NCBI GenBank assembly: GCA_039583875.1
Contig: CM077147.1
Location: 161,323,866-161,387,865, forward strand
Length of the DNA: 64,000 nt
From: Platanthera guangdongensis
Lineage: Eukaryota > Streptophyta > Magnoliopsida > Asparagales > Orchidaceae
Direction: 5' to 3'
Shown here piece by piece: positions 8,283 to 54,960 of this stretch (positions within the stretch are counted from its first letter, which is position 1; every line of letters begins with the position of its first letter). The notes under the pieces were generated by a model, which saw only the letters and a list, made by a program, of their open reading frames with translations, did no database searches and was not told where the DNA came from. The position numbers and the translations under genes are program-made.

Positions 8283-8514
8283 TGCCTAAACACCTAGAGG
8301 GGGGGGGGGGGGGTGAATCGGTGCACTTAATCTTTTAAAACTTTTAAGGCAGCACTACAGTACAATAATTGCAATTCACAGCATAGATAACACAACAATC
8401 ACACAAGCATACAATCACAGAGAGCACACAGGATTTATAGTGGTTCCCCAAGGTCTGGGTACATCCACTTTCCCCCTTCGCCTATCTAGTAGTGTACTAG
8501 ATTCGGCCTAACTT

Positions 8515-8783
8515 CTCCACTACTCCTCAGATCCATAGATCTTACAGCTCAGAACCCAAATAGGTTCCTACAACTCAGAGTGATCCCACTCGTACAACTC
8601 AGGCACAAAGCCCTACCACTCAGTCTTCACCAAGACCTACACTCAGCCTTCAACAAGTCCTACACTCAGCCTTCAACAAGGCCTACACTCAGAGAAATGT
8701 ATCTCCTACACTCAGGCACATAGGCCCTACCACGCAGCCTTTATAAATATAGGCTTACAACTCAGATCCCTTAGGATCCTACA
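8515..8783 (-). repeat. Mini-hairpin chain in LTR A (left-arm copy)
   Basis: Mirror of 27931-28176: about eleven short inverted repeats with different stems (for example GAACC/GGTTC, GAGTG/CACTC, GTCTT/AAGAC) divided by a CTACAACTCAG-like linker. Details are given with the right-arm copy. Confidence 0.85.
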
Positions 8784-9295
8784 GAAAATAGAAAGTAAAA
8801 GGATTAATAACCACAACTCTGATTGAGAAAGTTGAGTTGACTGGCTTCTTGATGAGTTCTTGAAAGAACTTTGCTGAGATCAACCTCCCTTGACTTTTCT
8901 TCAAAGCTTCTTGAATTAGAACATAGTAGGGTTGAATCTCTAGGCAGATGATCTTCAATAAACTGCAGACTTGTGATTTTGATATCAATCTGAATCTTCT
9001 TTATCAGCCTGATTCAATAGCTGTCTTCTTAGAAGGAGCTTTCTCTCTCCAACTTCTTAGATCTTCACTTGAAGGTCTTCTTCTGGTTTGTTGTTTCTCA
9101 CTTCAATGATTGCTTCTCATCTGATTCGATTTACTTCTGTTGAAGGAATAAGCCTTTATATAGGCTTTCTTCATGGTGACCGGCTGATCTGGTTTCTAAC
9201 AACTTCTGACAGCTCTGACAGTAGCAGTTGACCGGTTGAAATGACAGCTGTCAAGTCATCCAGACACTTCTTGAAATCTCTGTCACTGTCTGAAA

Positions 9296-10523: not shown

Positions 10524-13352
10524 CTAAGGCTGCTCTGGCTCCTTGATTACAATCCCTTTTCCAGATTGAATCTTTGCTTGAACTGGAGCTTCATGTCATC
10601 AGCAACAGCCGACTTCTTCCCTTTAAGATCTTTCTTTTTCAACTCTTCAGCCTTGATCTTTTGCCTTTCAAAGTAGTGATAAGGCTTGGGAAAATACTTG
10701 CCAGGCTCCTATGCATTAGGAGGTAGCTTTCCCAGTTTAGCCTTTCTTTTATATTGTACAATGACTTCTTGCCTATTCTCATGCTTCCTCCACTCCAGGT
10801 CAGAATACCATTTGCCTCTATCCAGGACATTGTCCTTAGCAGCCTTCCATGCAGTCAAGATGATATTCCTGGAAGTGGGGCTCCATTGTTCAAAATCAGG
10901 TCTCAATTCAGCTTGCTCTCTGAATCTTTTCTTAGACAATTGAGTCTCTTGTTCCTTTAATAAGGCCTCTTGTTCTTTCAGAATTTCCTCTAGCACAGGC
11001 TGAACTACTTTCTCTATGATGACATTCTGATTTCCCTCAGGAGGACTATACATAGATTGTATTTCTTGATGTATCATGTCAAAGTCTGGTGGAGGGTATA
11101 TCACTTGTGCTACTTCAGCTTGCTCTCCTCCAAGGTATGTAGGATTAATTCCAGACTCTGCAACATTGTCATCATCACATAAGGGTGGATATCCAAGAGT
11201 GGCTCTGATGGAATTTGAAATCCAGTTGACATGATCAGAGCCTGCCTTGACTAATACCCTCTCCCCCTTTATGACTTCTCTCTCTATATGATCCCTCAGA
11301 TCATCTTTCTGAAATCTATCTGTGCATTCAGATAGTTAACTCCATCCTTATAAAAAGGTTTCAACCTTTGGAGCTTTTCAGTTATAGCCTTTGAGAGTCT
11401 TCAATAGCAGTTTTAACAGCAGTTAGGCTCTCTTGCAATTGCTTGTCAAATTCAGCCTTGGCAGTAGCACTTGCTGCAGTCTGACCAGTAGCGATATTCT
11501 TCATTTCAGTTATTATGGCATTATGTGAAGCTGTCAAATTATCATTCATCCTTATCTGGTTTTCCAGGACATAGCCGTGCTTCACTTCTAGCTCATCAAG
11601 TTTTGTCTTTATTTTGTCTTGATGTGTAGCCAGATAGACTACTGCATTTCCTCCCTTATGGAAGCAGTCAGTCATTTACTTCTTGTTAAGATTTACTTCA
11701 AATCTGATTGACTTGATGTCTTGTGCAAGATCAAACTACAGGGATTTATTCCCTTCATCCACATATTTTTCGAGAGCTTGCCTCTGCTCATCTAGCTTGA
11801 TTTGTAAAGCCACCATCAGTGAACTGTAATCAGTAGAGGTGGCAGGCTGTGGAGCAATTGTTTGTAGGGCTTTCTTATAGTTCTGGCTCCTTCTCTTGAA
11901 GACTTGGAACTTTCTCTTTTTGGCTCTAACAGCCTCTTCATCCTCTGAAGCAGATGTGCTAGCAATATCCACTCTATCTTTAGGACTAGGATGTGAATCC
12001 TTCTCAGTCCTTGGTAGCCCTTCAGCATCTCTTGGCTCCTCAGTCTCCTTCCTTGCAGTTTCCTCTATAATCTCCACATGCTCCCCCTCAAGATTGATCT
12101 TCTCCACCTCAGCAACAGCTTGCTCTTTCTCAAAATCAGTTTGTAGAAGATCAGGGAACAGTTCTTCTAATGTAAATTCCTGTTAAGAATGGGCTGGTGA
12201 ATCTCTGATCTCATCAACCACTTTATCAACAACAGATGTGTCCTCCATGACAACATCTTGTGGTTGAGGTTGTATCTGTGTTTGCTGATGAATATCAGGT
12301 AATAAATCAGTCAAAATTTCTTCCTCAATAGTGAAATCTAATTGATTAATTGCAGTGATTACCTCAAGTATGGTTTGGGTAGCCCTTTCACTATCTAGTG
12401 GAGTTGGCTCTTCCACAAGTAGAGGCTCCCCCTGGAGTGAATCCAGGTGAATTGGGCTTGCTGAGGGTAGCTCCCCCTGCCTCTGTGCATCTTCTTGTCT
12501 TGCTGGAGATTGTCCAGTATTTCCTGTCCCTTCATCATCAGGAGTAAAGATTACTTGCTCTTCAGAGCTGCTAGAAGAATCTTGAGCCACAATGGCTGTC
12601 TTCTTCTTCTTTTTCTGGGGTGTGTCCTTTTCTGGTGTAGGCATTTCTTTTGTCAATACTCTATCCCATCTTGAGAAAATTCTCATATCCATCTTCCTCA
12701 TGTGGTTAATCTTTAAACCTGCAGCTTGGTTCATTACCTCAGGTATACTACCAGCTAGATATAGACTCAGAATTCTACCCAGATTGGGTTTCTTCATACT
12801 CACTTTTATCTTTTTAAACATAACTGTAGACCAATCAGTATCTAATTTGAAGATAATTCTTGTCATCAAATTGAACATATAAGCTGAAATCCTGTCATGT
12901 CCTCTAGGCTTGCTCAGGATGACCTTGCCAACTATTTCAGACAGAAATTTTCCTTGGATGTTCATACCTTTTCTGTTGAAAACAGATCCAATCTTCAGGT
13001 TTGAATCCAGTGCACACCATATCAATGCCTCTCTTGTCTTAGAAGCAGATACATCTTCTTCCTCCTTTGTCCTTGGTAGTTGAAGTATCTTTATCAGACT
13101 TTTTGGTGTGACCTTGACTTTGGTTCCATGAACTCTGGACTTAATCTTGAGGCCATAGTCATCAAGTGAAGCTGCACTCAGAAATTCTAGGACCTCCTTC
13201 TTCCAGATCTTGATTGGTTCAGAAACAAGGTATTCTAGTCCAGTCTCGGCAATTAGGGTTACCACGCCTTTGATCTCGGGTTCCGCGTCATCAAAGGCAT
13301 ATCGCACGAGTTCATATCCTTCATTAACATTCTCTTCTAGCTTGGGCGCCAT
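10524..13352 (-). pseudogene. Env-like accessory ORF of element A (left-arm copy)
   Basis: This copy keeps a longer open frame than its twin. From ATG at 13352 (MAPKLEENVNEG) it is open to a TAA at 12183-12185, about 389 codons. The right copy is broken by TAG, TAA and a frameshift in the same stretch. Further reading blocks (12107-11736, 11675-11382, 11104-10709) continue the same product but are separated by shared stops and by left-only 1-nt deletions near 11320 and 11390. Domain content is described for the right copy (23354-26185). Confidence 0.75.
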
Positions 13353-13664
13353 TAGGGTTTGAAGAAATTTGAATTTAGAGAAGAGAGATGTCGACACACA
13401 AGTTTGGTCTCGAAACTTTGGTGAGCGTGTCGACAAATAATGGCGAAAACCTATTTATACCTTTCTAGAATCGAAGATGAAAGGGCGCGTCAAAATACTT
13501 AAATTGTGTCGACACTGTTGAAAAGTGTCGACACCTACTTATAATGTCTCGACATCTATGTGTCGACACAAGTATAGTCGACAGAATATATGTGTCAACA
13601 CTTATATATGTGTCGACACCACCTTGGATGTGTCGACACCTTTTTACTTAGCCAATTTTGTAAA
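13353..13664 (-). promoter_or_regulatory. Candidate internal promoter before the env-like ORF (left-arm copy)
   Basis: Mirror of 23042-23353, with several GTGTCGACAC palindromes and a TATAAATAG box (minus, near 13453-13461) about 100 bp before the ATG. Confidence 0.55.
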
Positions 13665-16600
13665 CTATTCTAAGTTTATCATCCCTAATTCAATTTTAAA
13701 TTTATTGAATTTGGTTTCATCTAAGGGCTTAGTATACATGTCAGCTAGCTGATTATCTGTATTAATATACTCTAGTGAAATATCTTCTTTTTCCACATGT
13801 TCTCTTAGAAAATGGTATTTTATTTCTATGTGCTTAGTCCTACTATGGGAGACAGGATTATTTGCAATAGAAATAACACTTGTAGAATCACAAAAAAAGG
13901 TGTTCTACTTACTTGAATACCATAATCTTCTAGCTGATGTTGAATCCATAGAAGTTGAGCACAGCAACTTCCTGCAACAACATACTCTGATTCTGCTGTG
14001 GAGATAGCCACACTTGTTTGTTTCTTGCTACTCCATGATATCAGCCTTCCACCTAGGAATTGACAGGTACCTGTTGTACTTTTCCTATCTTCCTTGCAGT
14101 CTGCAAAATCTGCATCTGAATAACCTGTCAGTTAAAACACTCCATTCCTAGGGTACCAAAGGCCTAGATAAGTAGTGCCCTTAAGATATCTCAGAATTCT
14201 TTTGACTGCTGTCAAATGAGATTCTTTAGGGCAAGCTTGGTACCTAGCACAGACACATGTAACATACATGATATCTGGTCTACTTGCAGTCAAATACAAT
14301 AGGGAGCCAACTATCCCTCTATACAAAGTTTCATCTACAGGTTTCCCTGCATCATCTTTGCTTAGAGACATGCTTGACCCCATAGGAGTTTTCATGGTAG
14401 TGGATGATTCCATACCATACTTCCTTATCAATTCTAGGGTGAACTTAGACTGGCATATGGATAATCCATCTTCAGTCTGTCTAACTTGGAGACCCAAGAA
14501 GAACTTAAGTTCCCCATACTGCTCATTTCAAATTATCCTTGCATTAGTTTTGCAAACTTTCTGCAAAGACTACTTTCTGTACACCCAAATATGATGTCAT
14601 CTACATATATTTGGACTAAGATGATCTTATCTCTGGATTCCCTAAGGAATAGAGTCTTGTCTATTTTCCCCCTTGTGAATTTATTCTCAATGAGGAAACT
14701 AGACAGGGTTTCATACCAAGCCCTAGGGGCTTGTTTTAACCCATACAAAGCCTTCCTAAGTCTATAAACATAATTAGTTTTAGTAGAATCAACAAAACCT
14801 GATGGCTGTTCTACATAGACTTCTTCCTTCAGATTTCCATTCAGAAAAGCTGACTTAACATCCATTTGGTAGACCTTAAATCCTTGGAATGTTGCATAGG
14901 CAAGGAACATCCTTATTGCTTCCAGTCTGGCTACTGGAGCAAAGGTTTGATCAAAATCAATACCTTCTTCCTGCCTATATCCTTTTGCAACTAGTCTAGC
15001 TTTATTTTTATAATTACTCCATTTTCATCCAACTTGTTCCTAAAGATCCACTTAGTTCCAATAATGTTGTGGCCCTTTGGTTTAGGAACAAGCTCCCAGA
15101 CCTTGCATCTTTTGAACTGGTTCAGCTCCTCTTGCATAGCCTCAATCCAATGAGGGTCTATGATAGCTTCTTCAAATTTCTTTGGCTCTACTTGGGATAG
15201 AAAACTGGAGTAGAGAACTGAACTTAGATTCCTGCTTCTTGTTTGTACCCCTTGTCTGAGATCTCCAATGATTTGATTGGCTGGATGATCTTTTAAATGC
15301 CTATTTGCTGGAGGCAGCCTGTCTACTGGTTGTACACCTTCAGCTTCTTCATTCAGCTGCTCCTCTTGGTCTTCTTCAGCAACAGGAGTATCTTGTACTC
15401 CCCCTGGACAGCAGCCACTATCATCCACTTACTGACTTGCAGTAAAACCTTCTTCAATAGTAAGCTTGTCCATCTTCTCAGTCACACCTGTGGAACTGCA
15501 AACACTTCTAGACAATTCATTGTTAATAAGTCTAGCTTCATCAAACACTACATGTACTGACTCTTATACAACTATAGTAGTCAAGTTGTAGACCCTATAA
15601 GCCTTACTATTGTTGCTGTACCCAACAAAGATCCCCTCTTGGGATTTGGCAGCAAACTTGGTTAAATAAGACTTACCATTGTTAAGTATATATCATTTAC
15701 AACCAAAGATCCTGAAATAGGATAGATTTGGTTTTCTGCCCTTCACAATCTCATAGGGGGTCTTATTGTGGCTCTTGGTGATAGTAGCCCTATTGATCAC
15801 ATGACATGCAGTATTAACTGCCTCAGCCCAAAAATATTCTGGGAGAGATGTGTCACTCAATAGGGTTTTATCAGCCTCTATCAAGGTTCTATTTTTCCTT
15901 TCAGCAATACCATTTTGCTGAGGTGTTCTTGGTGAGGAAAATTCCTGAAATATCCCAAACTCTTCACATAGCTTTGTCATACTATCAGACTGGAATTCAG
16001 TACCATGGTCACTTCTTATTTTGACCACTGTACTGTCTAACTCATTCTGAATTTGTTTGACAAAACTATAAAAGATACTAGGAGTTTCAGATTTTTGCCT
16101 TAGGAAGAATACCCAGGAAAACCTTGAATAATCATCTACAACCATAAATGTGTAGACCTTCCTACCTAGGCTGTGAACTGGCATAGGACCAAAAAGATCC
16201 ATATGCAAGAGGTAAATGCACCTCACAACATCTTTGTTCTCAATGCTATGAAAGGTGGATTTGGTCTGCTTGCCCTTTTGACAAGCTGAGCATATCCCAT
16301 CCTTTATACACTTAACCTGAGGACCATTCCTCACTAACTCTTTGCTAAAGAGTTGGCCAATTGTCTTATAGTTAAGATGAGCCAGCCTCTTGTGCCATTT
16401 AACACAATGTGAGACTTTCTCATCAGCTATAAGATAAATAGGAGAACCTATGTTCTCACACATAATGTCTAGACAATAGACATTTCTCTTCCTATATCCT
16501 GTCAGAATGATCTTTTGATCACTTGACCTACTGATATGACAACCATTCTTGACAAATGAGATGTCATATCCTAAATCACTCAGCTGACTTATGCTAATGA

Positions 16601-16829
16601 GGTTATGTTTCAAACCCTTTACATAAGCCACTTGAGTAATTGTAACTAGGTTGATAGAAATGTTACCAAAGCCTTTGATGATTCCTTTTTCTGAACCACC
16701 AAAGGTAACCTTAGGACCATCTTTGATTGGTGTATAGTCCTTCAGTAATCCCCTAGTTCCAGTCATATGCCTGGAACATTCACTGTCCAAGTACCATATT
16801 GGGGCATGGCCACTTGAACTTACCTGCAA
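13665..16829 (-). pseudogene. Copia element A pol: protease, integrase, RT, RNase H (left-arm copy)
   Basis: The first block, 16829-15693, is open for 378 codons: WYLDSECSRHMT protease box, HKRLAHLNY...CSACQKGK pre-integrase finger, and integrase with [15 protein letters not shown] and GIAERKNRT. This shows that the frameshifts in the right copy are not shared. RT follows from 15428 to about 14132 with [10 protein letters not shown], then RNase H to the TAG at 13665. Stops shared with the right arm include a TGA after FGCK, a TAA before SVHV, a lost base before LVAKGY and a TAA after KLMQG. The element is dead in both copies. Confidence 0.85.
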
Positions 16830-16835
16830 AATAGA

Positions 16836-19878: not shown

Positions 19879-22800
19879 TTGCAGGTAAGTTCAAGTGGCC
19901 ATGCCCCAATATGGTACTTGGACAGTGAATGTTCCAGGCATATGACTGGAACTAGGGGATTACTGAAGGACTATACACCAATCAAGATGGTCCTAAGGTT
20001 ACCTTTGGTGGTTCAGAAAAAGGAATCATCAAAGGCTTTGGTAACATTTCTATCAACCTAGTTACAATTACTCAAGTGGCTTATGTAAAGGGTTTGAAAC
20101 ATAACCTCATTAGCATAAGTCAGCTGAGTGATTTAGGATATGACATCTCATTTGTCAAGAATGGTTGTCATATCAGTAGGTCAAGTGATCAAAAGATCAT
20201 TCTGACAGGATATAGGAAGAGAAATGTCTATTGTCTAGACATTATGTGTGAGAACATAGGTTCTCCTATTTATCTTATAGCTGATGAGAAAGTCTCACAT
20301 TGTGTTAAATGGCACAAGAGGCTGGCTCATCTTAACTATAAGACAATTGGCCAACTCTTTAGCAAAGAGTTAGTGAGGAATGGTCCTCAGGTTAAGTGTA
20401 TAAAGGATGGGATATGCTCAGCTTGTCAAAAGGGCAAGCATACCAAATCCACCTTTCATTGCATTGAGAACAAAGATGTTGTGAGGTGCATTTACCTCTT
20501 GCATATGGATCTTTTTGGTCCTATGCCAGTTCACAGCCTAGGTAGGAAGGTCTACACATTTATGGTTGTAGATGATTATTCAAGGTTTTCCTGGGTATTC
20601 TTCCTAAGGCAAAAATCTGAAACTCCTAGTATCTTTTATAGTTTTGTCAAACAAATTCAGAATGAGTTAGACAGTACAGTGGTCAAAATAAGAAGTGACC
20701 ATGGTACTGAATTCCAGTCTGATAGTATGACAAAGCTATGTGAAGAGTTTGGGATATTTCAGGAATTTTCCTCACCAAGAACACCTCAGCAAAATGGTAT
20801 TGCTGAAAGGAAAAATAGAACCTTGATAGAGGCTGATAAACCCTATTGAGTGACACATCTCTCCAGAATATTTTTGGGCTGAGGCAGTTAATACTGCATG
20901 TCATGTGATCAATAGGGCTACTATCACCAAGAGCCACAATAAGACCCCCTATGAGATTGTGAAGGGCAGAAAACCAAATCTATCCTATTTCAGGATCTTT
21001 GGTTGTAAATGATATATACTTAACAATGGTAAGTCTTATTTAACCAAGTTTGCTGCCAAATCCCAAGAGGGGATCTTTGTTGGGTACAGCAACAATAGTA
21101 AGGCTTATAGGGTCTACAACTTGACTACTATAGTTATATAAGAGTCAGTACATGTAGTGTTTGATGAAGCTAGACTTATTAACAATGAATTGTCTAGAAG
21201 TGTTTGCAGTTCCACAGGTGTGACTGAGAAGATGGACAAGCTTACTATTGAAGAAGGTTTTACTGCAAGTCAGTAAGTGGATGATAGTGGCTGCTGTCTA
21301 GGGGGAGTACAAGATACTCCTGTTGCTGAAGAAGACCAAGAGGAGCAGCTGAATGAAGAAGCTGAAGGTGTACAACCAGTAGACAGGCTGCCTCCAGCAA
21401 ATAGGCATTTAAAAGATCATCCAGCTAATCAAATCATTGGAGATCTCAGACAAGGGGTACAAACAAGAAGCAGGAATCTAAGTTCAATTCTATACTCCAG
21501 TTTTCTATCCCAAGTAGAGCCAAAGAAATTTGAAGAACCTATCATGGACCCTCATTGGATTGAGGCTATGCAAGAGGAGCTGAACCAGTTCAAAAGATGC
21601 AAGGTCTGGGAGCTTGTTCCTAAACCAAAGGGCCACAACATTATTGGAACTAAGTGGATCTTTAGGAACAAGTTGGATGAAAATGGAGTAATTATAAAAA
21701 TAAAGCTAGACTAGTTGCAAAAGGATATAGGCAGGAAGAAGGTATTGATTTTGATCAAACCTTTGCTCCAGTAGCCAGACTGGAAGCCATAAGGATGTTC
21801 CTTGCCTATGCAACATTCCAAGAATTTAAGGTCTACCAAATGGATGTTAAGTCAGCTTTTCTAAATGGAAATCTGAAGGAAGAAGTCTATGTAGAACAGC
21901 CATCAGGTTTTGTTGATTCTATTAAAACTAATTATGTTTATAGACTTAGGAAGGCTTTGTATGGGTTAAAACAAGCTCCTACGGCTTGGTATGAAACCCT
22001 ATCTAGTTTCCTCATTGAGAATAAATTCACAAGGGGGAAAATAGACAGGACTCTATTCCTTAGGGAATCCAGAGATAAGATCATCTTAGTCCAAATATAT
22101 GTAGATGACATCATATTTGGGTGTACAGAAAGTAGTCTTTGCAGAAAGTTTGCAAAACTAATGCAAGGATAATTTGAAATGAGCAGTATAGGGGAACTTA
22201 AGTTCTTCTTGGGTCTCCAAGTTAGACAGACTGAAGATGGATTATCCATATGCCAGTCTAAGTTCACCCTAGAATTGATAAGGAAGTATGGTATGGAATC
22301 ATCCACTACCATGAAAACTCCTATGGGGTCAAGCATGTCTCTAAGCAAAGATGATGCAGGGAAACCTGTAGATGAAACTTTGTATAGAGGGATAGTTGGC
22401 TCCCTATTGTATTTGACTGCAAGTAGACCAGATATCATGTATGTTATATGTGTCTGTGCTAGGTACCAAGCTTGCCCTAAAGAATCTCATTTGACAGCAG
22501 TCAAAAGAATTCTGAGATATCTTAAGGGCACTACTTATCTAGGCCTTTGGTACCCTAGGAATGGAGTGTTTTAACTGACAGGTTATTCAGATGCAGACTT
22601 TGCAGACTGCAAGGAAGATAGGAAAAGTACAACAGGTACCTGTCAATTCCTAGGTGGAAGGCTGATATCATGTAGTAGCAAGAAACAAACAAGTGTGGCT
22701 ATCTGCACAGCAGAATCAGAGTATGTTGTTGCAGGAAGTTGCTGTGCTCAACTTCTATGGATTCAACATCAGCTAGAAGATTATGGTATTCTAGTAAGTA

Positions 22801-26185: not shown

Positions 26186-26449
26186 GATAGAATTTTCTTT
26201 AGTTTACAAATTGTAATCATTTGTATTAAAATTCTATGTAAACTTTTGACTAATGAAATTGTTGAAATTTGTAAGAACAATGTTATATATACATTAATTG
26301 TTCTGAGATAACTGTTTGTATATGTTCTGTGTATACATGTTTAAGTTCTTTCCCTGTCATATATTACTGTTTTACATCATACTGAGAATTTGTTATGTAT
26401 GTTGTATATCATTGACTAAGGGTTATGACTTCTCCAAATAGGGGGAGAT
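26186..26449 (+). other. 3' non-coding tail and polypurine tract of element A
   Basis: AT-rich sequence of about 250 bp leads into AAATAGGGGGAGATT at 26436-26449, the polypurine tract priming plus-strand synthesis, directly before the LTR start TGTTGGGT. Confidence 0.8.
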
Positions 26450-26592
26450 TGTTGGGTACATTGGAATATATGTACCTGATTTGAAGAAGCCTTACCCTAC
26501 TCAATGATATATATCAAGATATATTTAATGTGTTTTGAGTTTATTTGTGCAGGTTAAGTAATTGCAAGGAAAACAAAAAGTTTCTAAGTCCA

Positions 26593-27420
26593 TGTGTCGA
26601 CACCTAGAAGAAAAGTGTCGACACTTAAGGAGGCTTGTGTCGACACCCAGAGAAGCAGTGTCACACTTAGAGTAATTGTGTCGACACTAGGAAGGCAGAG
26701 TCGACACCAGAAGGAAAGTGTCGACACATACAGGCAGTGTCGACACACAATGAAGAAATGTCTAAAGAATCAGTGTCGACACTTAGAAGCAGTGTCGACA
26801 CCCCGAGGAACTTTGTCGACATCAAAAGTGTCGACACTAGGAGGCTGTGTCGACACTCAGCAAAACATCAACAAAGTTCAAGTACAAGTGTCGACACTAG
26901 GAGGCTGTGTCGACACTCAGCAAAATATCAACAAAGTTCAAGTACAAGTGTCGACACTAGGAGGCTGTGTCGACACTCAGCAAACTTCAACAGAGTTTAA
27001 GTACAAGTGTCGACACAAAGGAGATGTGTCGACACTCAATAAAAGTCTCAACACATAAAGAATGTGTCGACACAAAGGAGATGTGTCGACACTCAGCAAA
27101 AGTTTCAACACAGAAGGCATGTGTCGATACAAAGAAGATGTGTCGACACTTAACAAGTTTCAACACAAGAAGATGTGTCGACACAAAGGAGTTGTGTCGA
27201 CACTTTGCAGAAATCAACTAAGTATTGAAGAATAAGGACTTGTGTCGACACACAGGATCTGTGTCGACACATTCTGAAGAAGCAGTGTCGAGAAGTTATT
27301 TCTACAACACAAGGAGTTGTGTCGACACCTTGAAGGCTAGTGTCGACACTTAGTCTACTTGTGTCGACACTTGGTCTATTTGTGTCGATACATAAAGACT
27401 ATCTGTCTCGACACTTTCAG
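26593..27420 (+). repeat. Array of ~25-30 GTGTCGACAC palindromes in U3 of LTR A
   Basis: The perfect 10-bp palindrome GTGTCGACAC (SalI core GTCGAC) recurs every 15-40 bp. Between about 26828 and 27000 it sits in three near-perfect 60-bp tandem units (AAGTGTCGACACTAGGAGGC and following). A few copies are degenerate, such as GTGTCGATAC. The array ends about 130 bp before the TATA box. It could serve as protein-binding sites, or fold as hairpins in read-through RNA; neither is shown by sequence alone. Confidence 0.9.
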
Positions 27421-27548
27421 ACAGTGACAGAGATTTCAAGAAGTGTCTGGATGACTTGACAGCTGTCATTTCAACCGGTCAACTGCTACTGTCAGAGCTG
27501 TCAGAAGTTGTTAGAAACCAGATCAGCCGGTCACCATGAAGAAAGCCT

Positions 27549-27557
27549 ATATAAAGG
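27549..27557 (+). promoter_or_regulatory. TATA box of LTR A
   Basis: TATATAAAG within AGCCTATATAAAGGCTTA, itself a short inverted repeat (AGCC/GGCT). It lies downstream of the palindrome array and about 380 bp upstream of the mini-hairpin chain, so transcription should start near 27580. Confidence 0.65.
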
Positions 27558-27930
27558 CTTATTCCTTCAACAGAAGTAAATCGAATCAGATGAGAAGCAA
27601 TCATTGAAGTGAGAAACAACAAACCAGAAGAAGACCTTCAAGTGAAGATCTAAGAAGTTGGAGAGAGAAAGCTCCTTCTAAGAAGACAGCTATTGAATCA
27701 GGCTGATAAAGAAGATTCAGATTGATATCAAAATCACAAGTCTGCAGTTTATTGAAGATCATCTGCCTAGAGATTCAACCCTACTATGTTCTAATTCAAG
27801 AAGCTTTGAAGAAAAGTCAAGGGAGGTTGATCTCAGCAAAGTTCTTTCAAGAACTCATCAAGAAGCCAGTCAACTCAACTTTCTCAATCAGAGTTGTGGT
27901 TATTAATCCTTTTACTTTCTATTTTCTGTA

Positions 27931-28176
27931 GGATCCTAAGGGATCTGAGTTGTAAGCCTATATTTATAAAGGCTGCGTGGTAGGGCCTATGTGCCTGAGT
28001 GTAGGAGATACATTTCTCTGAGTGTAGGCCTTGTTGAAGGCTGAGTGTAGGACTTGTTGAAGGCTGAGTGTAGGTCTTGGTGAAGACTGAGTGGTAGGGC
28101 TTTGTGCCTGAGTTGTACGAGTGGGATCACTCTGAGTTGTAGGAACCTATTTGGGGTTCTGAGCTGTAAGATCTAT
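27931..28176 (+). repeat. Chain of ~11 mini-hairpins with varying stems in R/U5 of LTR A
   Basis: A phrase of about 22 nt repeats: linker TGAGTTGTA or TGAGTGTAG, a short stem, a 4-10-nt loop, the complementary stem. Stems differ from phrase to phrase but stay complementary: GATCC/GGATC, AGCCT/AGGCT, GAGA/TCTC, GCCTT/AAGGC, GTCTT/AAGAC, GAGTG/CACTC, GAACC/GGTTC, AGATC/GATCT. One phrase (GACTT/AAGGC) has a mismatch, and two GGGC phrases have only 3-bp stems. It lies downstream of the TATA box, so it should be part of the RNA leader. The same architecture is found in LTRs B, D and E with other stems. Confidence 0.85.
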
Positions 28177-28428
28177 GGATCTGAGGAGTAGTGGAGAAGT
28201 TAGGCCGAATCTAGTACACTACTAGATAGGCGAAGGGGGAAAGTGGATGTACCCAGACCTTGGGGAACCACTATAAATCCTGTGTGCTCTCTGTGATTGT
28301 ATGCTTGTGTGATTGTTGTGTTATCTATGCTGTGAATTGCAATTATTGTACTGTAGTGCTGCCTTAAAAGTTTTAAAAGATTAAGTGCACCGATTCACCC
28401 CCCCCCCCCCCCTCTAGGTGTTTAGGCA

Positions 28429-31400
28429 CTAGTTATTTCAATGAGGAATCTAGCCAGGATCAGTCTGGTCTAGTCAAGGTACATTCTCAGTCAAATTACT
28501 TCACTGAAACTGGTTATGAAACCAGTCGTGAGTTAGAGGCATCTCCATCCTATGATGAAGATGGGTCTAAATCAGAAGAAGATGTCAATTCTTTTATTGA
28601 CAAGTATGGTGTCTTGCTGAATGCCTTCAAGAAAAGCAAGTTATTGGATAAGAAGCAGGCTAAGGAGATTTCTTCTCTTTAGCTTGCTGCTTCCCAGCAT
28701 GCAGACTCAGCTTCCCTATTGGATCTCAAAATGAGGGAAATCAGTGAATTAGAAACTATTTCCTTCATCTAGTTAGTCACCATAGAATACCAGGAAGACC
28801 GAATAAGGGACCTGAAAGTGTTGCTGGAGAGGGAGAAGAGGATAGTGGCTAGTTTTCTAAAGCCAAGTTCAGTGCCGCCCTTGATAGACTCCTTCACCTC
28901 CCAAAAGGGTAAGAAGAGGTTTGGCTTTAAGGGTCACACAAGAGTTGTCATCCCAAAGGAAATGACAAAGCTCTAGTGCAGCCACTAGCCTCCGTACCAC
29001 CTATTCCATTCAAGAGAGTTCTGTTACCTTCTAATAGGTATGACCAAGAGAGCATTTATGGTCACTAGGAGAATGGTAGATCCACTAGTGGGAACAAAGA
29101 TGTTCTACACTATGGTGGTAGATATAGCAAGGGTGCACGTGCCTTTAGGGCAGCTCATGAGGAAATCCAAATGGCCCATCATGGACCATTTATGTTTCGT
29201 GCACCAGACCCAACACTCAAGAGTAAGGAGGCAGTCTTCTCTTAGGAACTCCCAACCCACTATCAGAATAAGGGCAATTCTGTCAGTAGACCAGACTTTG
29301 GTATATCTAAGTCCATCAAGATATGTTTTCTAGAAAGAAGACTACTACTGGTATGGCTCAAGATATTCATGGTACTTCCGCTATCAGACACACCCCAAGT
29401 CAGACAGAGGCTGGAAGATACAAGAATAAGATTGTTGATGTACCTTCTGGATTGAGAGTTAATGTCAACAAAGCTACAAGACCAGCTCTAAAAAGTAGGT
29501 ATAATATCCATGAGTGTTGGTGCTATGACAAGGTAGTCCACTATGTTATTGATTGCTGGCACAATCCAAGTGTGTCAAGAGAAAGAGAGAGCTTACCTGT
29601 CAGAAGAACTACAGGTAGGCAAGTTCATTATCAAACTAACTTGCACCTAGGACCCAATAAGAATTGGGTTCCTAAGGTTAACTGATTTATGTCTTGCATG
29701 TTAGTCCAAGTGACCATACCCCTATATGGTACTTGAATAATGGATATTCCACGCACATAACTGGAACAAGGAGCTTGTTGAAGGATTACTCTTCAGTAAA
29801 GAATAGCCCCAAAGTCATCTTTGGTGGATCAGATAAGGGAGTGACAAGAGGTTATGGTAAGATCTCTAATGGCATAGTCACTATCACAAAAGTAGCATAT
29901 GTGGAAGGGTTGCAAAATAACCTGATAAGCATTAGCCAACTCTGTGATCTTGGCTATGACATAGTTTTCCATAAGGATGAGTGCCACATTAAGAGGCTAA
30001 GTGACCAAGAGATCATCTTAACAGACACTAGGAGTGGAAATGTTTATTGCTTAAATTTCTTATGCTTAGATAAGGACTCTCCAATATGTCTAGTGGCAAA
30101 TGAGAAAATCTCATATTATGTACAATGACACAAGAGATTAGTTTATTTGAACTACAAGACCATTAGGAAGCTCTTTAGAGAAGAGCTAATTAGAAATAGT
30201 CCCAAGTTGAAATACACTAAGGAGGGTATTTGTTATGCATGTCAAAAGGGCAAACAGACCAAGACCTCTTTCAAGAGCATTGGGACCAAAGACTCAGTGA
30301 GGTGCTTGTAACTCCTGTATATGGACATGTTTGGTCCTATGCCAATTCATAGTCTTGGTAGGAAAGTCTACACCCCTGTAGTGGTTGATGACTATTCTAG
30401 GTTTGCCTGGGTATTCATTTCTTAAGAGAAAGGATGAAACCCTTGATGTCTTCAAGAACTTTGTCGAGCAGATATAGAATGAACTAGATAGTTCTGTGGT
30501 CAAAATCAGGAATGACCATGGAATTGAATTTCAGTCTGCAAGCATGACAAGTTTCTGTGAAGAGCAAGGAATTCACCAAGAATTCTCCTCTCCAAGAACA
30601 CAACAAAATGGAATTACTGAGAGGAAAAACATGACTCTCATAGATGTTGGAAGGACTTTACTAAATGCCACAACTCTCCCAGAATATTTCTGGGCTGAGA
30701 TAGTAAACAATGCATGTCATGTCCTTAATAGGGCTTCTATCACCAAAAGCCATAAGAAAACTCCCTATGAGATCTTGAAAGGTAGAAAACCAAACTTATC
30801 ATACTTCAGGATTTTTGGAAGCAAGTGCTATGTGCTGAACAATGGAAAGTCCTATGTGACCAAGTTTGTTGCCAAATCCTATGAATGGATCTTTTTTGGG
30901 TACAGTAACCACAATAGGCATATAGAATCTATAACTTGACAATTCAAGTTGTAGAAGATTCAATTCATGTTATCTTTGGTGAATCAAACATAATTAACAG
31001 TGAGCTGCCTAGCTCTTCTTCTAATTTTGCAGGCATAGAGAAGGTGATGGGCAAACTCACCATCAAGGAAGATAATCCAGCAGTCCAGGATAAGGATGAG
31101 AATATATGTTGTCCAGAGGGTGCACAAAACACAGAAGTTGTGGATGAAGTTCAGCCAGATGGATCCATTAATGCTCAATAAGGTGAAGCAAGGTTGCCTC
31201 CAGCTGTAAGGCATCTGAGGGATCATCGATCACATCAGATCATTGATGATGCAAGCCAAGGAGTCTAAACCGGAAGCAAGAGTTTCAACATTGTAATCTA
31301 CTCAAGTTTTCTGTCACATGTAGAGCCCAAGAAATTTGAAGAGGCCAACATAGACTAATTCTGGATTGGAGCAATGCAAGAGGAACTAAACTAAATCAAG

Positions 31401-32848
31401 AGAAGTAAGGTCTGGAAGTTGGTTCCTAGACAAAAAGGACATAATGTCATTGTAGTTAAGTGGATCTATATGAATAAACTTGATGAAAATGGTATTATAG
31501 TGAAGAGCAAGGCTATACTGGTGGCTAAGGGATACATGCAAGAATAAGGGATTGATTTTGATCAGATATTTGCCCTAATAGCTAGATTCAAAGCTATAAG
31601 ACTCTTCCCTGCATTTGATGTCTACCAAGGATTAAAAGTCTACCAGATGGATGTGAAGTCATCCTTCCTGAATAGGGACTTAAAAGAAGAGGTCTATGTT
31701 GAACAGCCTCCAGGTTTTGTTGATTCTAACTCACCTGATTTTGTTTATAGACATAGGAAAGCTCTATTTGGGTTGAAGCAAGCCCCTAGAGCATGGTATG
31801 ATACCTTTCCTAGCTTCCTCATTGAGAATAAATTCTCAAGGGGGAAGATAGACAAGATCTTATTCATAAGAGAATCTAAAGGCAAGATCATCCTAGTCCA
31901 GATATATATTGATGACATTATCTTTGGATTTACTAATGACAACCTTTGTAGAAAGTTTGTTATACTTATGCAAGGGAAGTTTGAGATGAGTAGTATAGGT
32001 GAGCTCAAGTTCTTCTTGGGATTCCAAGTTAGACAGACTAATGATGGCTTGTCCATATCCCAAACAAAATTTATTAGGGAGTTGATTAAAAAATATGGTA
32101 TGAAGAGTGCCTCCACCATGAAAACTCCCATGGGGTCAAGTATGCCTACAGGTAAAGATGAAGCAGGGAAACCTGTTGATGTGACTTTATATAGAGGGAT
32201 AATTGGCTCCATTCTATATCTTACTACTAGTAGGCTTAACATCATGTATGATACATGTGTCAATGCTAGGTATCAAGCCTGCCCTAAAGAATCTTGTTAC
32301 TCTACTGCAAAGAGAATCTTGAGGTATCTTAAGGGCACACTAGATATTGGACTATAGTACCCTAGAAATAGGGATTTTGAAATAACATGTTATTCAGATG
32401 CAGATTTTGCAGGCTGCAAATAGGACAGGAAAAGCACTTCAGGATCCTGTCAATTCTTAGGTGGGAGACTAGTATCTTAGAATATTAAGAAGCAAACCAG
32501 TATGGCAATCTCAACTGCAGAGTCAGAGTACATATCAGCAGGTGCTACTTCACTCAGTTGTTATGGATCCAGCATCAACTCAAGGATTACAACCTCCAAT
32601 TAAGTAGAACTCCTCTTTATTGTGACTGTACTAGTGCTATTTCTATTGCTAGGAATCCTGTATCACACAGTAGGACTAAGCGCATAGAAATTAGGTATCA
32701 CTTTATTAAGGAGCATGTGGATAAGGAAGACACCAGTTTAGAGTTTGTCCCCACAGACAAGCAAGTGGCTGATATCTTTACTAAGCCACTAGATGAAGCA
32801 AAGTTCAACACCTTCAAGTTTGAGTTGGGTATGTTGAACTCAACATAG
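28429..32848 (+). pseudogene. Copia element B gag-pol (5' truncated, many stops)
   Basis: It begins in the C-terminal part of gag, interrupted by LTR A: SKSEEDVNSFIDKYGV and KKSKLL match the coiled-coil region of A gag. A zinc knuckle with its second Cys changed to Tyr (CWCYDKVVHYVIDC) is near 29510. The protease box is WYLNNGYSTHIT (catalytic Asp lost, near 29730). The pre-integrase finger CYACQKGK is near 30236. Integrase (NDHGIEF, TERKNMT) runs at 30496-30939. RT is open at 31647-32357 with QIYIDDIIFG. RNase H is at 32558-32848 (VPTDKQVADIFTKPLDEAKF). Many nonsense codons and frameshifts make B much more decayed than E. There is no env-like ORF after RNase H. Confidence 0.85.
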
Positions 32849-34652: not shown

Positions 34653-35031
34653 GATAAGATTGGTTGAAAGGAAATAAGTTTTTAGGGTTTTCTGATTATG
34701 CAGTACGGCTGAACATCATCATCTTTCTCACTATTATTGACGATCTTGAAGGTTTTGTTCTGATCATTGAACCTAAAAGCAACAAGAGTTAGCTGTTGCA
34801 ATTAACATCTATGATAGCAGGTTCAGAAGCAATTTATGAGAGGGAATAAGAAGAGGCAGATCAATAAATTTTTGCAAGAAAAGGTTGCTGATTGAAGAAT
34901 AATAGAACTATCATCTCCATAGTCTTCATCAACAGAAGCTAGGGATGAAATCTGCTCAGCCCAGGAAGAAGTGGACACAGTGTAATTACTCGAGTGTCAA
35001 TTCAAAACAATTAACCTTACATTCTCTTTGT

Positions 35032-35310
35032 AGGATCTTGTCTAGGATCTGAGTTGTAAGCCTTTCTTTAAAGGACGAGTAGTAGGATTCTATGCAGTAT
35101 CTGAGTTGTAGGCCTGTGTCATAAAGGCTGAGGTAAGATCCATTTTGGGATCTGAATGTAAGGCTGTCCTCACAGCCTGGGTTGTAGGGTAATTGGTCTG
35201 AGGTACGTGGTTGTTTAATCACTGAGTTGTAGGGTCTTGTGCCTGAGTTGTAAGTCTTGAAGGAGACTGATTGGTCCTGCGGGATCGAGTTGTAAGCTCT
35301 TTGGAGCCGA
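35032..35310 (+). repeat. Mini-hairpin chain in LTR B
   Basis: Same phrase structure as in A, with linker GAGTTGTA. Perfect stems include CCTTT/AAAGG, AGATCC/GGATCT, AGGCT/AGCCT, AGTCT/AGACT and GCTC/GAGC. Several other phrases are decayed. Confidence 0.75.
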
Positions 35311-35877: not shown

Positions 35878-36115
35878 TAAACACCTAGATGGGGCGGGGA
35901 TGAATAGGTTTGTTTTAAATCTTTTTGAATCTTTTCAACTTTGAGTATGGTGTGTGTTTGAGTTAGTAGTTAGCTTTCAAGATAACAAAACAACACCCAA
36001 GATTTATAATGCTTCCCCTATCTAGGGAACATCCACTTTCCCCCTTCACCTATCTAGTAGTGTGCTAGATTCAGCTAACTTCTCATTTATACTCGGCTCC
36101 TTAAGCTTACACCTC

Positions 36116-36391
36116 AGATCCCTCAGGATCTTACAACTCAGAGTTCAACAACTCCTACAACTCAGATCTTAACCAAGATCCTACCTCAGATCACTCCAGG
36201 ATCCTACCTCAGATCCACCCTAGGATCCTACCTTAGATCCACTATAGGACCCTATCTCAGAGTTCAACAACTACTACCTCAGAGTTCAACAACTCCTACC
36301 TCAGAGTTCAACAACTCCTACCTTAGACTGCTTCACAGTCCTACACTCAGCCTTTATAATTCAAGCTAATAACTCAGATCTCACAGAGATC
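36116..36391 (-). repeat. Mini-hairpin chain in LTR D
   Basis: About a dozen phrases divided by CTACAACTCA or CTACCTCA (plus strand). Perfect stems include GATCC/GGATC, GAGTT/AACTC (four phrases, one decayed), GATCT/AGATC and ACTG/CAGT. Some stems repeat, others are unique. Confidence 0.8.
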
Positions 36392-36718
36392 CAACAGGTT
36401 TGAGTACAGGTTTGATGAAACTGACTCTTGAGAAAAATCTTTGAGTCTTCTTCCTGGACTGTATAAAAAACAATTCCTCTTCATAGCAACAAGAAAGTAT
36501 ATATTTAGTGTTGTATCAGCTTGTGTTGTGAAGATCTTCTACAGGGCTCTGCTCCTTCTTCAAGCTTGAGAAAATTTGAGTTATATATAGCAGGTTTGAC
36601 GTTGAACAGTTAAATTTCTTGAGCTCTGCTGGCCGACGTTTGCAGAAAGAATTAGGGTTTGAGAAGTAGCCAAAAGTTCTTCCTCCAAAAGTTCTTGCAA
36701 ATATTGACCCTGCACTGC

Positions 36719-36726: not shown

Positions 36727-37179
36727 GACAGTCATGACAACGACTTCATGCCTCATTTAGAACGTGGCATGGGTAGCTTTAATTGTTGCTTTATCCCCGA
36801 TAAATCTATCAGAGAAGTATGACATTCTTTGTATTTTAGTGCTCTATCTGCTTTAATTTGAATTTAATAATGACGTCAGCATATTTGACATTCCCCCTGT
36901 GGACTTAGAAAAAGTCTTCCTGACAATTAGTACAGGCATTGAGTGACTCAACGAATTAGTTATAAACGGTTAAGTACATAAGCATTGAGTGAACAACCTT
37001 CACTCGATGCATTTATACTTAGCAGAATTCTACCTTACTGAAGAGGCGTTGAGTGAATGTTGACCACTCAACGCTTTTGACTTCAAATTCTTTCTAAAGC
37101 AGAAGTTTAGTGAACTGATTTCTATAACGCCCTGAAACTCAAAAGAGGGACGGGCAGCATTTAGAGCCAAGTTTGGGAC

Positions 37180-37620
37180 TTGGTAGTGGTCACACGGCCT
37201 GGGACACGGGCGTGTCACAGGGCTGTGTCGTGCTCGGGTTCGACGATCGTCTCGAGTGGTCGACGAAATGTACTCGAGACAGCGAACACGACCTGAGACA
37301 CGGGCGTGTCCCAGGCCGTGTCCTGCTCGGGCTATTAGCCGACCTGTGTCGGTGGAGGAACACGGCTTGGAGCTCAGGTGTGTTTGGATTTACACGGGCG
37401 TGTCAAATTCTACACGGGGGTGTCGAGTACCCGTGTCCTCTTCGGGTGGTTTTGGTCCTGTGTCGATGGAGGAACATGCCCCGCAACATGGGTGTGTACT
37501 GATTGACACGGGCATGTCAAGTGTGACATGGGCGTGTCGAGAGCCTGTGTCCTGGTCTGGATGTGATGGTTTCGGCATCGTTTGAGGCACACGACCGTGG
37601 ACACGGGCGTGTCACAAGCC
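37180..37620 (+). repeat. ACACGGGCGTGTC palindrome array in G1 LTR
   Basis: About ten variants of GACACGGGCGTGTC and partner half sites (CCTGGGACACGGGCGTGTC) are scattered over 440 bp. The same array is in the 3' LTR at 46890-47335 and, in related form, in G2 (37980-38120) and G3. Confidence 0.75.
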
Positions 37621-38142
37621 TTGTTCGACCCAGGAAATTGATTTTAAGTGCGAATAGTGGTCGTCCGTTTCCTTCTTTTGGGATCCAAGGGCCCAGGATA
37701 GTTCTTGCTGGGTTTAATCCGGGAATAGGGTTTGAAACCCTCATTTCCCATTGAGCATTCTCTTTTTAAAGCCTTAAAGAGAAGGGAGAGCAAGGAAGAA
37801 GGAGGAGGAAAGATCCGGCCGCCGGTGGAGCTTCGGAGCCCCAAATCACAAGCCGAGTTCATATCTACGAAGATGAGGCTGTTGCGGTGCTTTTCATCCG
37901 TGTAGATCTTCATGGCGCCAAACAGAAATGCAAGGGTAACGTGTAACAGGCCAAAGTCTGAAATTGGCAAAAACAATTGGGTGACACGGCCTGGGACACA
38001 GGCGTGTCCCAGGGCGTGTCCCGCTCGGGTTGCGTCGTGAGGCGCGAGGTCGACGATTTTTCGGTCGACGAAGTGTTTGGGTGGTCACGCCCTGTAACAC
38101 GGGCGTGACAGGGGGCGTGTCCCATTGGTTCGACGATTTTGC

Positions 38143-40434: not shown

Positions 40435-42026
40435 CCTGTTTAGATTTCATGTGTGGTCGGCCTGCGTGCCGATGTACGAAAATGTAATTGTGTGAAAAGA
40501 GAAATTTTTAAGGCCTTAAGGCTAGTGTGTGCGTTGTATACATTCCTGGTGTTGTTATATAAATGTGGAGTTTATATAGAAATGGACATTCTCTGAGCTG
40601 AGTTCTTTAACTTAAAAATGCTGCGCTCGAATATATTGAGTTAAGGATGCGAATAGAATTTGATTTCCACAAGTAATTCCACTACTTGTCTATGACATAT
40701 GGCATGGGGCCCGGACCAGACCCACCGTTATATGCCATGTGACGAATAGGGGCGTTACATAACGATTCATCTTGGACATGTGAAGTCCACTTTCTGTTTG
40801 CATAGGAATCCCGCTCTCGCTAGTATGCAGTGAGTGTGAGGTGTTCCTTCGGGTAGACATGAATAGTCCCCGTTGTTTTGCATGTAGAGACCGGAATCGA
40901 AGTACGGACATAGGCATGGTATTTGAAGCCTACCCGGACAAGTTGGTCTGGATTGGTGATGTTGCATCTCATGAATGGCCGGAGAAGACTCCGCGCCGAT
41001 GGTTGTTTTTCGGGTTTTCTACGTGGTAGATTGCAATAAGGAGCCTTGGGGACTAACCTCAAGGTGCACCTGAAAAACTGGGCAGAAACGTGGTTCTGCC
41101 ATCTTGTTGGCATGGGAGCCAACTTGTACATAACTGGGTTATGTAATATTGTGTGTTCGATACTCGGGATTCGGGGAAGCTTGACCCGCGCCGATGACTT
41201 AAATTGCTGTGGCAAGGTAAGCAACGGGTTGAGTGGAACTGTACTTGCTTTATGTGGTTCGGTTTTAGAGGCCTACCGATGGCATAGAGGACGGGTCTTA
41301 GGCTTTCAATCTCTTCAATTGACGTGACTTCTGCCGGAAAGACTCAAATTCTCACGAGTTTGTCGTCCATGGGGCGGTGGTGAGACCGTGGATTTTGACC
41401 GGGTTCACCGAGAATGTACCCTGAGAGTACGGGGTGTGTGGTCGCGCGAGTCGACGCCTGTGATGATGTGTAATTTCACAACGGTTAAGCTATGCTAATA
41501 AAGTGCATGGAAGGAGCATCGCCGTCCCGAGTTTAGGGTTGGGATCGTTATAATTTGGTTAGCTTTAGTTGACCGTTGCTTTTGCTTGCCACCACTTTGG
41601 TGGATTGTTGCTTGCAGGTGCTGCGGAGCCTAGTGGCAAATAGTGGGCAAAAGCCCTTGTTGCTGAGCCGGCCCTCGAAGGCCTTTATATGAATGTTTAC
41701 CTTTATTCTCATATGTGACCGGCTGCGTGCCGAGGTTTGGAAGACACTATTTATTTGAGTAAACTCTTGTAAGGACATAAGGCCATGGTACTTTGTGTAT
41801 TTTGTACGTTCATTCCTTTTGGGTTAATGTTAGTGGACATTCATGCTGTGGCTGGGTTCTTAATTTCAACATTTAAAATGCTTCCGCTAGAATGTACTTT
41901 GTATAGGACGTTGGTTATTGGAAGGATGGTTTCATTGCGTAACCCTTCAGTCTGTCTGTGGTATATGGCGTCGGGCCCCGGCCGGACCTACTGCTATATG
42001 CTATGTGACGGATAGGGGGTGTTATA

Positions 42027-42045
42027 ATTTGGTATCAGACTACTG
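42027..42045 (+). other. Primer-binding site of G1
   Basis: ATTTGGTATCAGACTACTG directly follows the 5' LTR. TGGTATCAGA fits the 3' end of initiator tRNA-Met, usual for chromoviruses. Confidence 0.75.
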
Positions 42046-42218
42046 ATTTCGGTCAACTTAAATAAATTTGTGGACTAATTATTTTAAGGGGTGGTGAGCA
42101 TATGCGTGTGCGTCATCATTATAACATAAAAAGAACCCATGAATGTCCACTTAGGAATGAAAATACACATGTTTGCAATTTTGTTTGGTCGCTTAATGGT
42201 GTTTTGTACGACTATAGG

Positions 42219-46832: not shown

Positions 46833-47812
46833 TGTAACACCCTGAAACTCAAAAGAGGGATGGGCAGTGTTTAGAGCCAAGTTTGGGACTTGGTAGGGGT
46901 CACACGGCCTGGGAAACGGGCGTGTCCCAGGGCCGTGTCGTGCTCGGTTTCGATGATCGTCTCGAGTGGTCGGCGAAATGTACTCGAGACAGCGAACACG
47001 GCCTGAGATGCGGGCGTGTCCCAGGTCGTGTCCTGCTCGGGCTGTTAGCTGACCTGTATTGGGGGAGGAACACGGCTTGGAGCCCAAGCTTGTTCGGGTT
47101 GACACGGGCGTGTCAAATTCGACACGGGCGTGTCGAGTACCCGTGTCCTCTTCGGGTGATTTTGGTCCTGTGTCGATGGAGGAACACGCCCTGCAACACG
47201 GGTATGTACTGATTGACACGGGCGTGTCAAGTGTGACACGAGCGTGTCGAGAGCCCGTGTTCTGGTCTGGATGCGACGGTTTTGGCGTCATTTTAGGCAC
47301 ATGGCCTTGGACACGGGCGTATCACAAGCCGTGTTTGGCCTAGGAAATTGATTTTAAGTGCGAATCATGGTTGTCCGTTTCCTTCTTTTGGGATCCAAGG
47401 GCCCAGGCTGGTTCTTGTTGGGTTTAATCCAGGAATAGGGTTTGAAACCTTCATTTCCCTTTGAGCATTCTCTTTCTAAAGCCTTAGAGAGATGGGAGAG
47501 CAAGGAAGAAGGAGGAAAGATCCGGCCAACGGTGGAGCTTCGGAGCCCCAAATCGCAAGCCGAGTTCTGATCTACGGAGGCGAGGCCGTTGCAGTGCTTT
47601 TCATTCGTGCAGATCTTCATCGCGCCAAAGAGAAACTCAAGGGTAACAATTCTCATCTTGGACATGTGAAGTCCTCTTTCCGTTTGCATAGGAAGCCCGC
47701 TCTCGCGAGTATGCGGTGAGTGTGATGTGTTCCTTCGGGTAGACATGAATAGTCCCTGTTGTTTTGCATGTAGAGTCCGGAATCGAAGTACGGACATAGG
47801 CATGTTGTGTGA
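46833..47812 (+). mobile_element. 3' LTR of G1, first part (interrupted by G3)
   Basis: Homologous to 37123-37941 plus 40765-40920. It starts TGTAACACCCTG and carries the ACACGGGCGTGTC array. It ends in TGTGA (47808-47812), the target-site copy at the G3 insertion; the rest follows at 57276. Confidence 0.9.
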
Positions 47813-53573: not shown

Positions 53574-53599
53574 GTATTTAAATAAATTGACTTGCTATA

Positions 53600-54756: not shown

Positions 54757-54960
54757 CTATAGTGGTACAAAACACCGTTAAGCGACCAAATAAAATAACA
54801 AACAGCAATTATAGGAACACGCAGGTTCCTCAAACACGTGTATTTTCATTCCTAAGTGGACATTCATGGGTTCTTTTACTGTTATAACGATGACGCACAC
54901 AATGTGCTCACCACCCATTAAAAAAATTCGTCCGCGAATTCATGTTAATCCCGATCAAAA

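Follow-up and report, generated by a model that had tools for sequence, protein, structure and literature searches.

Retroviral packaging leaders contain several stem-loops within the 5′ leader, each distinct from the others, and are not known to have a repeated phrase with a constant linker. In Sireviruses, which make up about 21% of maize (PMC10760457), the LTR carries repeated motif (RM) palindromes that, like the chain described below, consist of many palindromic units; these are found before the TATA box, repeat one palindrome whose core is mostly CGG-CCG, and form CpG islands (PMC2829016). The miRNA-like hairpins of maize Copia LTRs also resemble the chain, in that predicted structure is concentrated in the LTRs (PMC10760457). 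BARE elements have two TATA boxes in the LTR; RNA from TATA1 is packaged, and RNA from TATA2 is capped and translated (PMC3735527). Here we describe a chain of mini-hairpins downstream of the TATA box in the LTR of element A, which lies in a 64-kb stretch of the Platanthera guangdongensis genome (the window, by which we mean the whole stretch of DNA analysed). This chain is a real feature and is apparently undescribed.

A chain of mini-hairpins in a Sirevirus-type LTR

Element A is of the Sirevirus type (Ty1/copia). We placed the start of its 3′ LTR (26450–28440, + strand) by the polypurine tract AGGGGGAGATTG, read from the sequence at 26440–26451 (+), and its end by the CA that precedes the PBS in other copies; because the window copy is a 3′ LTR, the PBS junction is readable at other loci and not in the window. 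The Sirevirus junction CA/A(T or G)TGG-TATCAGAGC, or a variant differing by a few bases, follows LTR A at 15 of 40 loci, 3 of which have TATCAGAGC exactly; 17 of the 40 have other flanks and 8 were left unplaced by the polyC pattern. TATA1 (TATATA, 27548–27553, +) is situated near the middle of the LTR and, as in Sireviruses, comes after an array of palindromic repeats. These tandem repeats of GTGTCGACAC (26594–27388, +) are the kind of repeated motif that Sireviruses carry before TATA (PMC2829016). Their core is GTCGAC, and the CGG-CCG core is absent from the A array; Tnd-1, one of 13 tabulated motifs, likewise has no CGG-CCG core (PMC2829016), so this core is not obligatory for a Sirevirus motif. 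Further downstream are a conserved block, GAAGGGGGAAAGTGGATGTACCC..GGGGAACCACTATAAATCC (28232–28280, +), with a second TATA-like box at 28272, and the polyC-rich signal together with the LTR end (28393–28440, +). This signal is positioned about 21 bp before the LTR end in Sireviruses (PMC2829016), and its C run in A ends 28 bases before the LTR end. It is also found in family D and in a mirror copy of A, and by eye families B and C have diverged C-rich forms.

Eleven phrases make up the chain (27931–28190, +), and in each of them a short inverted repeat precedes a near-constant, GAG(T)TGTA-like linker. A linker in A reads GAGTTGTA, GCGTGGTA, GAGTGTA, GAGTGGTA, GAGCTGTA or GAGGAGTA. All phrases are on the + strand, and their stems are GATCC/GGATC (phrase 1, 27931–27946), AGCCT/AGGCT (phrase 2, 27955–27974), GGC/GCC with three pairs (phrase 3, 27983–27996), GAGA/TCTC (phrase 4, 28004–28019), GCCTT/AAGGC (phrase 5, 28027–28042), GACTT/AAGGC (phrase 6, 28050–28065), GTCTT/AAGAC (phrase 7, 28073–28088), GGC/GCC again with three pairs (phrase 8, 28097–28109), GAGTG/CACTC (phrase 9, 28118–28133), GAACC/GGTTC (phrase 10, 28142–28160) and AGATC/GATCT (phrase 11, 28169–28182). 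The single mismatch of phrase 6 belongs to the window copy; 27 of 30 aligned copies, counting the window copy and its mirror, have another letter there. An initial annotation had claimed about eleven stem-loop phrases at 27931–28176, with a constant linker and several named stems. We found all of these stems and the GAG(T)TGTA-like linkers, with the chain reaching slightly further, to 28190. Immediately upstream, a pyrimidine-rich run (27907–27931) with TGTAG as its last letters ahead of phrase 1 looks like a 3′ splice site. A similar run is present in family B (35020–35033); TGTAG also occurs within the linkers, and the resemblance may mean nothing.

The density of hairpins exceeded chance when we tiled the chains of A and of three related families (B to D, below) and compared them with dinucleotide shuffles: 0 of 300 shuffles were as high for A, C and D, and 1 of 300 for B. 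Strict tiling of A gave nine hairpins, six of which coincide with phrases 1, 5, 7, 9, 10 and 11. To score the pairing of the arms we permuted the 3′ arms among phrases, which needs no alignment of copies; the linkers were cut with patterns drawn up by eye, a separate one for each element. Stem scores summed to 55.5 for the 11 phrases of A versus 35.4 (s.d. 3.55) after permutation, 56.0 versus 36.2 for the 12 phrases of B and 63.5 versus 42.6 for the 13 phrases of C, with 0 of 5,000 permutations as high in each case. Identical phrases were merged in a second test, which left 11 phrases in C and still gave 0 of 5,000. Taken together, the 40 phrases of A to D had 167 Watson–Crick pairs, versus 119.2 when permuted.

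Perfect stems and global folds gave a more mixed picture. When the whole window was scanned for perfect stems 5 bp or longer, 12 of 1,262 scan windows of 200 nt reached six or more, C and D among them; A and B were below this threshold. Outside the LTRs, 6–7 such hairpins per 200 nt were counted at 16301–16551 and its mirror 20151–20451, both in the pol reading frame, and at 29651–29850. Global folds compared with shuffles gave z scores of −4.77 for D, with the first four hairpins preserved side by side in its predicted fold, −3.63 for C, −2.06 for A and −0.17 for B. The folding of the leader that the initial annotation had recommended is more stable than in shuffles for C and D, modestly so for A, where local hairpins are mixed with long-range pairs, and no better for B. 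Rfam 15 gave four weak matches in 26400–28500, all below the gathering score.

The window has several other features. A 25-kb inverted repeat (5822–30891), 99.5% self-identical, begins directly after exactly 500 N (5322–5821); it is probably an assembly artefact that doubles the features within it. Copia integrase and reverse transcriptase, expected of a Sirevirus, are represented by the Pfam domains Pol_BBD, rve and gag_pre-integrs in 15693–16835 and RVT_2 in 31548–32357. Between pol and LTR lies an open reading frame at 12183–13454 (−), mirrored from 23513 onward, which has no Pfam match and five relatives in the protein collection, all of them Platanthera proteins; from its position it may be env-like, an ORF type that Sireviruses often carry. 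Further long repeats at 37125–37940, 40797–42175 and 46835–58379 are probably other LTR elements, and there are tandem arrays, for example at 58382–58822 and 60636–61003. Elsewhere in the genome, neighbouring copies of A form two LTR-like pairs (L027/L040 and L026/L031) that are 97.1% and 97.6% identical over about 2 kb, and at this identity the insertions are not very recent.

Related chains and the pairing of their arms

The chain of A has a mirror copy at 8461–8810 (−); it is the mirror image within the inverted repeat and therefore not independent evidence. Three other, diverged LTRs in the window share this layout, each in the corresponding position: family B, with 12 phrases (35033–35308, +), family C, with 13 phrases (36095–36392, −), and family D, with six hairpins in the tiling and other linkers (59817–59941, −). 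Each chain in the window is followed by a block, about 48 nt long, that includes a second TATA-like box, at 28232–28280 in A and near 8434, 35364, 36025 and 59787. In MAFFT alignments between families, the block is 60–89% identical versus 47–65% for the chain.

We searched the host assembly (4.245 Gb, 274 contigs) for each family and scored the best 40 candidates. The best 40 of 3,542 candidates for A were 96–97% identical, the window copy and its mirror excepted, and the best 40 of 416 for D were 96–99% identical. Families B and C were more diverse: relatives among the best 40 of 4,230 candidates were 79–87% identical to B, the window copy excepted, and the best 40 of 5,419 for C yielded 50 matches that were 73–89% identical, a range that leaves out the window copy and one 46-base piece. 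From these we retrieved 39 C-type and 20 B-type stretches for comparison. Phrase number varies, with 7–15 linker matches per stretch in the 39 C copies, and recent tandem duplicates are visible in phrases 5–7 of A and in the GGAGTTGTTGAACTC repeats of C.

So that the chain itself played no part in the choice, we picked 15 LTRs by the pattern of the 3′ block alone and then inspected the upstream sequence. A chain was recognized by eye in 12 of them; seven are B-like and five constitute a further family, E, with different stems such as GATCCG/CGGATC. The other three have no clear chain (last phrase only in L136, none in L131 and L132). Tiling of the 230 nt beside the block was matched by no more than 5 of 100 shuffles in 9 of the 15 LTRs, versus 1 of 15 for a control stretch 250–450 nt upstream of the block, which can contain the start of a long chain. 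Tiling and inspection agree in part: L131 and L136 are among the nine high tilings, and L130, L133, L135, L138 and L139 have a chain by eye without a high tiling. The patterns of the 3′ block had no match in a viral contig collection or a genome contig collection. An integrase alignment found no relative in the viral collection and 20 loci in the genome collection, many of which resemble eukaryotic contamination; within the 3′ block, the stretch resembling GAACCACTATAAA had no match among those 20. Three of the loci, on contigs of a bacterial assembly, Labilibacter sediminis CG51 (L001, L002 and L004), encode a Copia-type integrase 41–47% identical to the query, which is probably contamination.

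Arm permutation was repeated for each related copy with identical phrases merged; the copies are kin, so these results are not independent of one another. The pairing of arms reached P ≤ 0.01 in 24 of 39 C-type chains (31 of 39 at 0.05) and in 15 of the 20 B-type chains tested out of 21 (19 of 20 at 0.05). Eight block-selected chains were tested, the other 7 of 15 having fewer than four distinct parsed phrases; five reached 0.05 and two reached 0.01. We also measured mutual information between the arm columns of 189 distinct phrases, mostly of C type plus those of A and B in the window, which remained from 227 after trimming and a length cut that dropped phrases outside 14–18 nt. True partners in columns 2–5 scored 0.39, 0.92, 0.79 and 0.62, and no other value in the same row or column was higher; column 1 had almost none (0.04).

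Changes among close copies told less. Within clusters of related phrases, one-sided changes from Watson–Crick to unpaired (43), to GU (33) and to AC (30) were counted alongside four two-sided changes from one Watson–Crick pair to another, and most of these changes look like the decay of dead copies. In the orthologous hairpins of C, the covariation score was 0.113 versus 0.091 (s.d. 0.006) in shuffles, 90.6% of cells were paired versus 88.5% when shuffled and 15–54% when slid (0 of 500 shuffles as high for either measure), and 16 cells had a two-sided change versus 10.1 (8 of 500), with the caveat that relatedness can lift sequences above shuffles even where there is no structure. The two measures graded least misleading by the covariation test were at shuffle level in C: 3 two-sided pairs versus 2.8 (299 of 500 as high) and 16 pair types versus 16.0 (332 of 500). 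In B, none of five measures rose above shuffles at 5% (119, 209, 77, 229 and 38 of 500 as high), the covariation score being borderline at 0.129 versus 0.121 (38 of 500). The test on close copies alone thus looks weak, because B and two C measures are at shuffle level.

Single positions in these alignments nonetheless exchange one pair for another. Column pair 104–110 of C is UA in 16 copies, GC in 12 and in other states in 12 (n = 40), and column pair 147–156 of B is AU in nine, GU in eight and GC in three, with none broken. The last hairpin of E, chosen by eye, is paired at six positions in six of six copies, with L136 counted as E; its sixth pair reads TA, GT, GC, AT, GC and TA, and its first pair is AT in five and GC in one. 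RNAalifold recovered seven pairs in the C alignment (−1.01 kcal/mol), none with a two-sided change, a scant result that may come in part from the shifting of unequal stems by MAFFT and from many decayed copies. The consensus fold of B mixes in long-range pairs, with a two-sided change at 5 of 55 pairs and a covariation term of −0.92.

Comparison of GU and AC pairs did not set RNA apart from DNA. Strict tiling gave 13 GU and no AC pairs on a GT-rich sense strand, and the permutation control gave no contrast (GU 10 versus 21.8, AC 2 versus 7.4). Shared variants had no clear asymmetry (GU to AC, 4 to 0 in B and 6 to 5 in C) in a count from which five pairs of alignment A3 were dropped as misaligned or often unpaired. 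L124, whose chain is cut off upstream, was left out of A3, and the mirror copy L023 was dropped from the rate count.

Overall, the two arms change together more between phrases and between families than they do among recent copies. The initial annotation had proposed that the two arms change together and that stem covariation be tested across aligned copies. Paired arm change held between phrases, over the 189 phrases and in some hairpins of C and E, and failed within B; across aligned copies, the C score stood above shuffles and two C measures and B did not.

A putative RNA leader and possible roles of the chain

If transcription begins 30 nt after TATA1, as we assumed, the putative leader is about 860 nt long to the LTR end. 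ATG is scarce in this region: A has 7 versus 16.8 in shuffles, C has 3 versus 12.6 and D has 3 versus 11.5 (0 of 400 shuffles as low in each), and B has 9 versus 15.9 (9 of 400). The chain itself is also poor in ATG (2 versus 5.6 in A, 2 versus 5.1 in B, 0 versus 6.4 in C and 0 versus 1.9 in D). Other triplets served as a comparison. CAT is near expectation after TATA1 in B and D, below it in C (5 versus 8.0; 53 of 400 as low) and low in A (4 versus 8.5; 21 of 400); ATG is not scarce in the U3 of A (14 versus 15.5), and part of the U3 of D is low in both ATG and CAT. Triplets also stray elsewhere, with 0 of 400 shuffles as low for GTA in the U3 of A and 5 of 400 for AGT in D. Seven short upstream open reading frames (uORFs) of 2–16 codons are present in A. 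The composition of the sequence after TATA1 suggests an RNA leader that is scanned, and because ATG is scarce in the chain, at least some chain-bearing RNA would be scanned. The earlier proposal that the chain is part of the RNA leader fits its place after the TATA box and the scarcity of ATG, with transcription itself presumed.

We know of no account of how Sireviruses tell genomic RNA from mRNA. The reading that we favour, tentatively and as one possibility among several, is that the hairpin array acts at the RNA level in the Sirevirus leader to mark genomic RNA for packaging or dimerisation. The chain would be transcribed from TATA1, and its structure would act as RNA; about 6 to 13 mostly weak hairpins would hold apart the short near-constant linkers, and a protein, most likely Gag, would read the linkers many times over. 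That the linker is constant and the stem sequence free suggests a reader of linkers, with the stems as spacers. In a retroelement the natural reader would be Gag, hence packaging or dimerisation, and Sirevirus Gag has an RNA-binding CCHC knuckle (PMC2829016). Tandem duplication would add and remove phrases, and the stems would stay paired through selection acting on master copies. We favour such a mark because of the arm permutation, the tiling, the folds of C and D, the mutual information, the compensatory pairs of C and E, the chain in 12 of 15 block-selected LTRs and the scarcity of ATG. It is weakened by the B covariation, two C measures and the B fold, all at or near shuffle level, by the scant RNAalifold result and the modest fold of A, and by decay-type changes, the lack of GU/AC asymmetry, stray triplets, the partial agreement of tiling and inspection, and the three LTRs without a clear chain.

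Since the chain lies between TATA1 and the second TATA-like box, the promoter used could determine whether an RNA includes it, and BARE is a precedent for two TATA boxes giving two RNA pools. RNA from TATA1 would then bear the chain and be packaged, and RNA from TATA2 would be without it and be translated; the label would be multivalent through its linkers, with stems free to vary if paired. We consider this more specific scheme doubtful, and a strict separation of RNA pools fits poorly because the scarcity of ATG in the chain argues that chain-bearing RNA is scanned. The block with the second TATA-like box may be a second promoter, an RNA end or a packaging signal.

That same scarcity of ATG, across a leader of about 860 nt and the chain within it, is what would be expected if the close rival of packaging or dimerisation held, namely that ribosomes scanning the long leader are slowed or diverted by structure in the chain, with short uORFs around it, and that only part of the RNA is translated. 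The seven uORFs of A are in keeping with such translation control; however, most hairpins are short, A and B have mixed best global folds, and a mere barrier would leave the near-constant linkers unexplained, and we judge it somewhat unlikely. The chain could also be without function. Template switching during replication or reverse transcription would then have produced the inverted repeats and tandem duplication would have multiplied them, so that the linkers are simply duplicates. The recent duplicates in A and C, the variable phrase number of C and the covariation at shuffle level in B and in two measures of C would all be accounted for in this way. Exchanges of single pairs at orthologous hairpins of E, C (104–110) and B (147–156), a layout kept at the same place in families A to E and the scarcity of ATG speak against it, and we regard an origin of this kind without function as rather unlikely.

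Arrays of palindromes are a known feature of Sirevirus LTRs (PMC2829016), and small RNAs are known at their palindromic regions (PMC10760457). The chain might accordingly act at the DNA level, as has been proposed for the palindromes before the Sirevirus TATA, either because a host factor binds the palindromes or because the hairpins feed small-RNA silencing, and the GU and AC counts do not favour RNA. Yet the known palindromes repeat one sequence before TATA, and the stems of the chain differ between phrases while the linker is constant, which makes them unlike one repeated binding site; the scarcity of ATG, moreover, suggests a leader. On balance a role in DNA seems improbable to us.

Comparison with described elements

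Among the matches listed for literature on palindromes, hairpins and leader structure in such elements, covered by titles and the beginnings of abstracts, none had a row of hairpins downstream of TATA, which agrees with the statement of the initial annotation that no described family has this design. The chain does not fall under the definition of the Sirevirus repeated motif: it lies downstream of TATA, has a different stem in each unit and keeps its linkers constant. Element A has both, an RM-type palindrome array and the hairpin chain. In maize Copia LTR hairpins, the most abundant motif is one palindrome, CACCGGACNNNGTCCGGTG (PMC10760457). For BARE, the excerpt consulted mentions no hairpin chain between the two boxes (PMC3735527); unlike BARE TATA2, the second box here is a conserved TATA-like sequence only. 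An array of hairpins with covarying arms, found between two TATA-like boxes in some five diverged families within a single genome, is a concrete candidate RNA element that can be tested, and it suggests that many weak hairpins can persist as an array without any single stem sequence being kept.
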